A DNA stretch of 44,650 bases from Streptococcaceae bacterium (GTDB lineage Bacteria; Bacillota; Bacilli; Lactobacillales; Streptococcaceae). Location of the stretch: assembly GCA_031254115.1 (NCBI GenBank), contig JAIRUZ010000071.1:1-44650 (forward strand). Reading direction: 5' to 3'. The notes under the pieces were generated by a model. That model did not search any database. It worked only from the letters and a program-made list of their open reading frames with translations, and was not told where the DNA came from. The first letter of the stretch is position 1; every line of letters starts with the position of its first letter. Positions 10,091-13,519 of this stretch are shown piece after piece. Position numbers and translations under genes: made by a program.

Positions 10091-10119
10091 ATTGTACTAG
10101 AAACTTTTTGCGCTGTCAG
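10091..10119 (-). promoter_or_regulatory. Predicted tdk operon promoter
   Basis: -35 CTGACA (10119-10114), exact 17-bp spacer, -10 TACAAT (10096-10091). The -35 overlaps the stop codon of the preceding gene. The -35 is also a half copy of the iterated palindrome, so it could be coincidental. Confidence 0.5.
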
Positions 10120-12161
10120 CCCAAAAGTTTGCGAAGTTTTCTTCCGTCGCCTGACAAAACCGCGCCAGCCAATTGATCCAGCTGCGTGCGCAATTCTGTC
10201 AGCTGCTCCAGCACATTTTCCGCATTTTCAAAGATTTCGTTCACGTTAAATTCGAGCGTGTCAGCAAGCAGCGCGTTATTTTCTGCGCTCATGAGCGCGT
10301 CAGCTTCTGGATACGATTTCAAAAGTGCCCGACTGTTTTTTGTCAGCGCTGACAAAACAAGCGTTGGCATCTGCTCGAGGCCACCCATTGCCTTGTCATG
10401 CGCCTCCGCGTCTATCACCGCAAAACGTGCCCCGCTATCAGCGAGCAATTCTTGTACTTGCTCATTATCAGCTGACAACACATAAGTTTTGTCTCTAAAG
10501 AGCGCTGCGCTCGCCTCGTCAGCTGAGCCGATCACTGGATGCCCACCAACAAACGTAACTTCTTTTCCATCAAATAGTTTCTTCGCTGACGCAACAATTT
10601 CCGCTTTCGTGCTGCCCGTATCCGTAATCAATACACCCGCATGCAACGGCAAACCAGCCAATTGTTTCAAAATCGCCAGATTCTTTTTCTCTGGCAAACT
10701 CAAAAGAATGACCGAAGCCTTCTCAGCTGCTGCGTTAAGGCTTTCCACCACCAAATTAAAACGTCCCGTAGCCACGCTCGCGGTGCGCGCTGAGGCATCG
10801 GTATCGTAACCGACCAAATAAGCTTTCGGATCTTTTGCGCGAATCACAGCAGCAAGAGAAGCACCAACAACGCCCAGACCAATAATCAAAACATTTTGGC
10901 GGCCCAACACAACCAGTTTTTGACGGTCCACTTGTACACCGTGCGTGAATGGATTGATATGTGCAAAATTAACGGCTGGAAGCGCGGTGAATAAATCACC
11001 AATTGCCTCCGTGCGCGACACACGAAACGCCTCAAACGCGCGCAAGAACTGCGACGGAATCTGCGTAAAATTCGTAAAGGCAATCAGCTCATCGTCGTCA
11101 TCATGTGACTCAGGATGCAACAGGAAATGATGCTCCAAATACTGCACCATCTCATCTTCGCTGCGCGCAGACGCATTTTCTTTTGATTCACTGGACTCAT
11201 AAATCAAATAACTAGGAATGGCTACTTTCTCGGCAAATGCGCCGCTACCTACTTTTGTCGAAAATGCCGTGTAATCAGCCGTTTTTACATCAATTGCAGC
11301 CGCGTTGTAGTCTTCCTTGGACGTTTCAAAAGCAATCACAAACGTCGCCTCAGCGCCTTTTTTCGCCTCGCCCATATAAAGACGCGTGAGCGCATCGTCA
11401 GACTCGACGAAGCTAATGAGACCGCGCAATAAAGCCGTCGGAATACTCGTCACAGGTTTGAAATCTAAAGCGTCTAAGCCTTGAGGAATTGCTGGTTGCG
11501 GCTGTTCTTCTACGGCAATTTCGGATGCTTCATTTTCAGCTTCATCTTTGACAGCATTCTCTGCCTCTGACTCAGGCTCCGTCTGCGTTTCAGCAGTTTC
11601 GGGCACAACTTCAGGTTCAATTTCAGACACTTCTTCTGGTTCTGCTAGCGTTTCGGGCGCGGGCTCATCCACAGGCTTTACTTCCCCGCGCTCGCTGCGA
11701 CGCGGAAAAAGTGGCTCCGTGGGCACGGACGCAGGCGTCTCTTTTTCAGCTTCAGGCACAGTGTTCTCCTCTTCGGCGTTTAAAACTGCTGTCCGGCTCA
11801 GGCGAATGCTGTCCGTTTCAGGATTAATCAGGAGGAAATCAACATCATCGAGCTCCTTGAGCAAATCTTTCAAATCCTCAAAATTCATCGTTGTCAAATC
11901 CGACGTCGGATCGTCAACAATTTTTGAACGGCTGGTGTAGAGATGCAGAAAATTCTCGCCATTGTCGTCTTCAAAGACGACAAAGCCGCCCTCTTCAAGC
12001 GCGAAAGTTGCATAATTTTCTTTCAGCCAAACAAGCGTTGCGTCGGCGCTTTTAAATTCAAGCGCGCTAATCTGGCGCTCTTTGCGGCCGCGTGCGCGAT
12101 GCGTCGCGGTTCCTGATTTGTCGTCATCTTTATCGTCTCTAAAGACATCAAATATTCCCAT
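10116..12161 (-). CDS. SseB-like / prephenate dehydrogenase-like fusion protein
   Basis: A single 681-codon frame. Residues about 32-122 resemble an SseB N-terminal domain (ending DVDFLLINPETDSIRL); 128-225 is a Glu/Pro-rich, probably disordered linker; 240-322 resembles the SseB C-terminal domain; 335-416 looks like a second SseB N-type unit (FAHINPFTHGVQVDRQKL). From 422 a Rossmann domain of the TyrA family begins: NVLIIGLGVVGASLAAV, then TDTGSTKAEI (514-519) and GGHPVIGS (539-546). The catalytic His of the last motif is kept, but the family's SHLPH motif is replaced by EQMPT (about 596-600) and the helical end is short. Prephenate oxidation is therefore doubtful. It sits outside any aromatic operon, has its own promoter, and is followed by tdk. 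Function unknown. Confidence 0.75.
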   Translation of the reverse strand: MGIFDVFRDDKDDDKSGTATHRARGRKERQISALEFKSADATLVWLKENYATFALEEGGFVVFEDDNGENFLHLYTSRSKIVDDPTSDLTTMNFEDLKDLLKELDDVDFLLINPETDSIRLSRTAVLNAEEENTVPEAEKETPASVPTEPLFPRRSERGEVKPVDEPAPETLAEPEEVSEIEPEVVPETAETQTEPESEAENAVKDEAENEASEIAVEEQPQPAIPQGLDALDFKPVTSIPTALLRGLISFVESDDALTRLYMGEAKKGAEATFVIAFETSKEDYNAAAIDVKTADYTAFSTKVGSGAFAEKVAIPSYLIYESSESKENASARSEDEMVQYLEHHFLLHPESHDDDDELIAFTNFTQIPSQFLRAFEAFRVSRTEAIGDLFTALPAVNFAHINPFTHGVQVDRQKLVVLGRQNVLIIGLGVVGASLAAVIRAKDPKAYLVGYDTDASARTASVATGRFNLVVESLNAAAEKASVILLSLPEKKNLAILKQLAGLPLHAGVLITDTGSTKAEIVASAKKLFDGKEVTFVGGHPVIGSADEASAALFRDKTYVLSADNEQVQELLADSGARFAVIDAEAHDKAMGGLEQMPTLVLSALTKNSRALLKSYPEADALMSAENNALLADTLEFNVNEIFENAENVLEQLTELRTQLDQLAGAVLSGDGRKLRKLLG
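10341..10354. repeat. Iterated palindrome copy in the SseB-TyrA gene
   Basis: Perfect copy; read as LSALTKN near residue 606, beside the altered motif EQMPT. Confidence 0.9.
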
Positions 12162-12208: not shown

Positions 12209-13519
12209 TCACTTACGTTTGCGTGCAATGATATGTATTGGTGTCCCCGTATAAATAAACGCCTTGCGAATCTGATTTTCAAGAAAACGCAAATAACTAA
12301 AATGCATCAATTCTTCTTCATTGACAAAGACGACAAAAGTCGGCGGTTTAATCGCCACTTGCTGCGCCATGAAAATCTTGAGGCGCTTGCCTTTGTCAGT
12401 CGGCGTCGGATTTGTCGCGACCGCATCTTGAATCACGTCATTGAGCACGCTCGTTGTGATTCTGAGATTTTGATAGTCGTGAATTTCCTTGATTTTGTCA
12501 GGCAATGTCGAAAGACGCTGCTTAGTCATAGCTGACACATAAACGATAGGCGCATAATCCAAGAATTTAAATTTGGTTCGGATTTCTTCCTCAAATTTTG
12601 CCATCGTGTGATTGTCTTTATCAAGCGTGTCCCATTTATTGACGACAAGAAGAATGCCTTTGCCAGCTTCGTGTGCAAAGCCTGCGATGCGCATGTCGTA
12701 CTCACGAATGCCTTCTTCGGCGTTAATCACCATGAGGACAATATCGCTACGATCAATCGCACGCATAGCGCGCATGACTGAATATTTCTCGGTCGACTCG
12801 TAAATTTTTCCTGATTTACGCAGGCCCGCCGTGTCAATCATGAGAAATTCTTGGCCGTCAGCGTCCGTAAAGCGCGTGTCAATCGCATCGCGCGTCGTTC
12901 CAGCAATCGGCGAGGCAATCACACGCTCTTCGCCAAGCATCGCATTGACAAGGCTTGATTTTCCGACATTTGGCCGACCAATCAAGCTAAAGCGAATCAG
13001 ATTTGGATTCTCCTCTTCGCTGTCAGCGGGAAGTGCCGCAATAATAGCGTCTAGCACGTCGCCAGAGCCAATGCCGTGAACGGCAGACATCGGGAGTGGC
13101 TCACCAAGCCCCAAACTATAAAAATCATAAATTTCAAGACGACGCTCAGGGTTATCGGTTTTATTAACCACGAGAATCACGGGTTTATCTGTTTTATAGA
13201 GAATCTGTGCAACGGCCTCGTCGCCGTCTGTCACGCCCGTCTCACCATCAACGACCGCGACGATGACATCAGCTTCATTCATCGCAATTTCAGCTTGCGC
13301 ACGAATTTGCGTCATAAATGGCGCGTCTGACAACTCAATGCCGCCCGTGTCAATCAGCGCAAAGTTTTTACCGAGCCATTCTCCTGTTGCATAGATTCTA
13401 TCGCGCGTCACGCCAGGCGTGTCCTCGACAATCGAAATGCGCTCGCCTGCAAGTCGATTGAAAATGGTCGATTTGCCAACGTTCGGTCGCCCGACGATAG
13501 CTACTGTTGGTATACTCAT
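12209..13519 (-). CDS. der: Ribosome assembly GTPase Der (EngA)
   Basis: Two consecutive GTPase domains and a C-terminal KH-like domain, needed for 50S subunit maturation. Domain one: [17 protein letters not shown]. Domain two: [17 protein letters not shown]. Length 436 is normal. ATG 13519 lies 7 bases after an extended -10 (TGT-TATACT) with no room for a Shine-Dalgarno site, so the mRNA is predicted to be leaderless, surprising for an essential gene. Confidence 0.97.

Follow-up and report, generated by a model that had tools for sequence, protein, structure and literature searches.

SseB, the enhanced serine sensitivity family, is widespread and of obscure function, and the SPI-2 protein of Salmonella that carries the same name is an unrelated protein. 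Published profile analysis relates the SseB domain to the Tic22 peptide-binding chaperones (PMC9503650, the text of which cites work on Salmonella SPI-2 SseB). TyrA is a recurrent fusion partner, and the fusions described in the part of PMC1173090 considered here are AroQ-TyrA, TyrA-AroF, HisHb-TyrA, TyrA-ACT and TyrA-REG; the same part also provides a precedent for a decayed or truncated fused domain, the AroF remnant of P. syringae. The roles assigned below to Ser126, His197 (E. coli), the His-Asp pair, His217 and the substrate Arg follow PMC2954222, in which the His-Asp pair hydrogen-bonds to the catalytic His. A search of a literature library for SseB joined with prephenate dehydrogenase found no paper. 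As far as we have searched, the SseB–TyrA protein described here is a new architecture of known parts that is restricted to one small genus.

Domain order of the fusion protein

The window, by which we mean the whole stretch of 44,650 nucleotides that was analysed, comes from Lactovum (Streptococcaceae), a small genus with members in soil and termite guts, and encodes a 681-codon fusion frame on its minus strand. The gene der ends 47 bp upstream of the fusion gene start, and a purine-rich AGAAGGGGAT precedes the ATG. The gene, its neighbour and its domains are as follows.

12209..13519, minus strand: der GTPase, constantly present upstream (in Glo450_bin24 as well, and within about 2.5 kb in L. 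miscens)
10116..12161, minus strand: 681-aa SseB–SseB_C-like–SseB–TyrA fusion gene (open reading frame and Pfam)
11778..12047, minus strand: residues 39-128, SseB_N unit 1 (PF07179 on 59-126 and profile comparison)
11469..11774, minus strand: residues 130-231, acidic disordered linker (composition; pLDDT about 30)
11208..11468, minus strand: residues 232-318, SseB_C-like unit, a weak assignment (profile comparison)
10908..11174, minus strand: residues 330-418 (about 315-418 in the profile comparison), second SseB_N-like unit (profile comparison)
10425..10904, minus strand: residues 420-579, TyrA nucleotide-binding (Rossmann) half (PDH_N; best solved relatives 3dzb, 3b1f and 5uyy)

An earlier note had read SseB units, an acidic linker and a TyrA-type domain in this one frame, and Pfam and profile comparison agree with it. 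The N-terminal and C-terminal parts each match their expected family above the cut-off: PF07179 (SseB) at residues 59-126 (E 1.9e-5, 25.3 bits against a cut-off of 21), the similarity on which the earlier note had staked its reading, and PDH_N (PF02153) at residues 436-579 (E 2.2e-20, 73.2 bits against 26.5). The order along the protein is SseB_N, acidic linker, SseB_C-like unit, second SseB_N-like unit and TyrA core. By profile comparison, unit 1 matches stand-alone SseB with 97.8% probability, while the second SseB_N-like unit matches unit 1 with 94% and stand-alone SseB with 77% probability. The linker between units is 31% D/E and 6% K/R. The SseB C-terminal domain PF14581 has no Pfam match in the window protein; residues 232-318 resemble SseB_C weakly in the profile comparison (19%, P 1.2e-3), and a stand-alone SseB of another genome (G073) aligns to the N-terminal profile at positions 233-310. 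The AlphaFold model of the L. miscens orthologue, which is fairly confident in its domains, shows these three units ahead of the C-terminal domain and repeats the secondary-structure order of unit 1. A Foldseek search with that model gave no significant whole-model match, and a sequence search for SseB relatives among solved structures found none. By analogy with the one published profile link to peptide-binding chaperones, the SseB units are most likely a binding adaptor for protein or peptide. The Lactovum SseB part also gives a weak match to a type VII-associated model of NCBIfam. In another Streptococcaceae genus (g4; loci L053, L055 and L056), stand-alone SseB-like genes adjoin genes for possible substrates of type VII secretion.

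Residues kept and lost in the TyrA unit

The residue numbering of published TyrAs was carried over to the window protein by our own transfer, which fits the spacing, and the motifs of the TyrA unit were located by alignment.

10857..10880, minus strand: residues 428-435, GLGVVGAS dinucleotide motif with GxGxxG intact
10599..10625, minus strand: residues 513-521, TDTGSTKAE with the catalytic Ser kept (Ser126 of A. aeolicus TyrA)
10524..10547, minus strand: residues 539-546, GGHPVIGS with the catalytic His kept and the following HKSG lost
10386..10403, minus strand: residues 587-592, AHDKAM with the His-Asp pair kept
10362..10382, minus strand: residues 594-600, GLEQMPT in place of QVSHxPH, with the tyrosine/prephenate-contacting His lost
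10263..10289, minus strand: residues 625-633, SAENNALLA in place of AGGFRDMTRIA, with the carboxylate-binding Arg lost

The alignment upholds two changes that had been noticed by eye, the retention of GGHPVIGS at 539-546 and the replacement of SHLPH by EQMPT at 596-600. The substrate Arg is replaced by A and the SHxPH His by T, and the loop is deleted, although both residues are invariant in all 29 canonical TyrA rows and in the Glo450_bin24 fusion. A Trp of the helical domain is also lost, as is ACT, the frame ending after the PDH_C helices. Across the 64 near-invariant columns of the 29 canonical rows, the window protein keeps 25 and the Glo450_bin24 fusion 62; within the core, 27 of 52 near-invariant residues are lost. 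These losses are not scattered evenly: cofactor and relay residues are kept in 7 of 7 cases (P 0.004) and substrate-clamp residues in 0 of 7 (P 0.007) under random keeping of 25 of the 52, P values that are indicative only because both sets were picked from PMC2954222 and general background after the alignment had been seen. Loss of the substrate-binding residues with retention of cofactor and relay residues suggests that the window TyrA unit is no longer a prephenate dehydrogenase. Its best score against the NCBIfam equivalog for that enzyme is 149.8 bits, short of the 524 set for membership.

The earlier note had also described the C-terminal dimer helices as short, which is not clearly the case. 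PDH_C at residues 584-680 scores 20.4 bits, just under the cut-off of 22 (85.6 bits in Glo450_bin24), and its alignment spans model positions 1-100 of 102; the protein lacks instead the ACT domain carried by near relatives and the GGFRDMTRIA substrate loop. For the TyrA part, the AlphaFold model of the window protein is of poor quality (pLDDT mostly 33-55), and because of this its fold matches, although they are TyrA, have an rmsd near 20, so that the sequence was relied on instead. In the TyrA tree, the end branch of the window domain measures about 10 changes per column compared with a median of 0.26, and with so long a branch the tree does not place the domain; it neither supports nor rejects monophyly with the Glo450_bin24 domain (AU p 0.34).

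The altered frame nevertheless has no stop in the 262 codons of the TyrA part, at about 34% identity to relatives, whereas simulated unconstrained drift to 60% identity produces 4.7 stops on average and leaves only 1.7% of runs stop-free. Its codon-use score of 0.18 falls among those of 38 other window genes (0.20 +/- 0.07), compared with -0.23 for random synonymous codons. Together with the very long branch, the open frame and codon use indicate that the TyrA part is probably translated and folded but freed from the constraints of prephenate dehydrogenase. This altered form is known from one metagenome-assembled genome (MAG), which is 76% complete.

Orthologues and aromatic genes in Lactovum

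The window protein used by itself as query retrieved no relative, and an alignment-based search found four. Orthologues are thus present in all five Lactovum genomes of our genus sample, namely the window genome, L. miscens DSM 14925 and the MAGs Glo450_bin24, TD116_bin48 and Ehx436_bin1; the sample leaves out the L. odontotermitis type-strain genome (BAAGGQ01). From their bin names, the Lactovum MAGs presumably originate from termite guts. A profile of residues 1-417 was run against about 1,100 Bacilli genomes, in overlapping samples of 335 from the family, 395 from the order and 399 from the class. Only the five Lactovum genomes yielded the long N-terminal form; elsewhere in the Lactobacillales, SseB proteins stand alone and are about 225-315 residues long. 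Among the plasmid-record matches listed, all were to the TyrA part.

The earlier note had called for a survey of the genomes that hold the fusion, and this finds the TyrA-bearing form in the window genome and Glo450_bin24 and an SseB–ACT form in the other three. Glo450_bin24 encodes a 799-aa SseB–SseB–TyrA–ACT protein that adjoins der and has all catalytic residues; its TyrA-ACT part is contiguous and ordinary, being 58% identical to a TyrA of the family over 357 columns. No other TyrA was found in this genome, which is 81% complete. The orthologues of L. miscens (511 residues), Ehx436_bin1 (479) and TD116_bin48 (472) have no dehydrogenase core and consist of the SseB part and, immediately after it, a tail of about 65 residues alignable with the ACT end of TyrA. 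The canonical TyrA profile finds this ACT end in all three core-less orthologues (E 3e-4 to 1e-3, which none of 900 shuffles reached), and hhalign compares the tail with the ACT end of TyrA at P 3.4e-8. Among 995 solved chains, the predicted fold of the tail is closest to the ACT of B. anthracis TyrA (Z 11.7, rmsd 1.1 over 63 residues), with AcuB second (Z 9.4). By profile and predicted fold, the tail is a TyrA-type ACT domain. Since the ACT of Glo450_bin24 is part of an ordinary contiguous TyrA-ACT, it is simpler to suppose that an ancestral SseB–TyrA–ACT fusion lost its core than that a core was inserted, and we infer such an ancestry with later core deletion.

A second, canonical tyrA, which the earlier note had suggested looking for, is indeed found elsewhere in the window genome: a tyrA with ACT adjoins aroC (contig C5, 1404-2456), and aroA, aroK and pheA lie on contig C12. 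The earlier note would have been refuted by complementation with the fused gene in a genome without any other tyrA, and the fused gene is not the sole tyrA here. Glo450_bin24 possesses aroA, aroK and pheA and the fused TyrA only. In L. miscens (99% complete) and TD116_bin48, aroA and aroC are present and neither tyrA nor pheA was found, while Ehx436_bin1 has tyrA and no pheA was found there. If the fused unit once made tyrosine, loss of its core would be expected alongside loss of the Tyr/Phe branch or the presence of another tyrA, as is seen.

The segment of aroC 3' half, cadD-like gene, domain X gene and tyrA is 94% identical between the window genome (C5, 1-2473) and Ehx436_bin1 (C159, 1-2473), and the two contigs share their first 119 bases exactly. 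The MAG contig names contain k119, the same number as the shared bases, which suggests one shared assembly and a recent exchange of the aroC–tyrA segment; such an exchange between the two genomes is likely from the sequence comparison. Transfer of aroC-tyrA into both genomes was considered as a proven event and dropped, the arrangement aroC-X-tyrA beside rimP fitting a locus native to the window genome. Directly after aroC, Glo450_bin24 encodes a 199-aa protein (C13, 5349-5948) made of an SseB_N-like half, which matches the second SseB_N-like unit (unit 3) with 90% probability in profile comparison, and an 83-residue domain X. Domain X has no Pfam family match; it is encoded by a separate gene of about 85 aa after aroC in one other Streptococcaceae genus and by a gene that immediately precedes tyrA in both Ehx436_bin1 and the window genome. 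Two joins of SseB with aromatic genes in Glo450_bin24, the second of them seen by profile comparison, suggest more than coincidence.

In the window, the neighbours of the fusion are der, tdk and prfA, and no linked pathway genes were found beside it. The suggestion that both tdk and der might be constant neighbours held for der, which is present at both TyrA-bearing loci, and failed for tdk. A VanY-type D-Ala-D-Ala carboxypeptidase-like gene, recognized by eye, lies directly upstream of SseB-ACT in all three ACT-only genomes and is not found there in the TyrA-bearing ones. Near the SseB-ACT gene, TD116_bin48 and Ehx436_bin1 have tandem genes with N-terminal repeats 'EWLxxFExxxGRKPTxxEFxxAK' (L045 570-9443 and L043 9391-15395).

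Fate of the TyrA unit and comparison with known fusions

Based on these results, we propose with a probability of roughly 0.55 that the fusion carries a retired ancestral SseB-tethered prephenate dehydrogenase, now a non-catalytic NAD(H)-binding module on an SseB adaptor, while the canonical tyrA supplies tyrosine. The ancestor would have been a Lactovum-specific SseB–SseB–TyrA–ACT protein in which two SseB units formed the adaptor for a prephenate dehydrogenase. In the window genome, the canonical tyrA of the aroC locus would have taken over tyrosine synthesis; the fused unit would then have lost its ACT feedback domain and prephenate clamp, ceasing to be a prephenate dehydrogenase and remaining as a folded NAD(H)-binding module. 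The function that survives would probably lie with the SseB units, as an adaptor that binds proteins or peptides.

The retained nucleotide motif, Ser, His and His-Asp pair with none of the seven clamp residues, in an open frame of normal codon use, would also be expected of a dehydrogenase with a new substrate, such as one that performs NAD-dependent hydride transfer on a hydroxy-substrate without prephenate's carboxylates and uses the SseB units as a scaffold. To this extent the residue pattern allows the reuse of a TyrA fold for another NAD-linked reaction that the earlier note had put forward. We regard it as possible but doubtful, however, as the pocket-lining loops are deleted, the neighbouring genes offer no pathway and the altered site occurs in no relative. 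The intact TyrA-ACT of the closest relative and the dropped core of three others point to retirement of an enzyme rather than to a new enzyme family, and a non-catalytic NAD-binding module is favoured over an enzyme for another substrate.

The very long branch, the loss of ACT and of about half of the near-invariant core, and the deletion of the core in three relatives would also suit a neutral relic, in which the TyrA part is a decaying leftover awaiting deletion and the SseB part alone matters. This is unlikely, given the stop-free codons at such low identity, codon use like that of functional genes and the non-random retention of catalytic and cofactor residues. A working prephenate or arogenate dehydrogenase, redundant with the canonical TyrA, would account for the kept catalytic Ser and His and for a TyrA model that matches end to end over the core, but is highly improbable with the His and Arg for substrate and tyrosine binding gone together with their loops and a canonical tyrA in the same genome. 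Although the window comes from a metagenome bin, of which it forms one contig, a chimeric assembly or a frame artefact that brought SseB and tyrA genes together can be dismissed. The identical junction and der linkage occur in the independent MAG Glo450_bin24, and ACT-bearing fusion remnants are present in a further two MAGs as well as in L. miscens DSM 14925, an isolate.

Across five genomes, one SseB protein is joined to an intact enzyme, to a clamp-less enzyme or to an amino-acid-sensing domain alone, and the Lactovum genomes would clearly illustrate the stepwise natural retirement of an enzyme within a fusion. A broader and more speculative idea is that Lactovum SseB is an adaptor with swapped aromatic modules: a tethered SseB–TyrA–ACT enzyme, an enzyme-free SseB–ACT tyrosine sensor in species without tyrA and pheA, and, in the window, an SseB–altered TyrA serving as a dehydrogenase or redox sensor for a new ligand. 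If true, it would give SseB its first concrete biochemical context. As L. miscens is cultured, the role of SseB with an aromatic-amino-acid module is directly testable.

Compared with the TyrAp-ACT proteins of low-GC Gram-positive bacteria (5uyy, 3dzb and 3b1f), which are its best sequence and fold matches, the window TyrA unit shares the Rossmann core, dinucleotide motif, catalytic Ser and His and PDH_C-type helices, but it lacks the prephenate clamp and ACT and has an SseB region of about 420 residues in front. Relative to the stand-alone SseB family (PF07179/PF14581), unit 1 passes the Pfam cut-off and the second SseB_N-like unit is related by profile; whereas stand-alone SseB consists of SseB_N and SseB_C, the Lactovum protein consists of SseB_N, linker, SseB_C-like unit and SseB_N followed by the enzyme or ACT. 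It shares TyrA as a fusion partner with the fusions described in the part of PMC1173090 considered here, but its own partner, SseB, is not among them and belongs neither to the enzymes of the aromatic pathway nor to the known allosteric domains.
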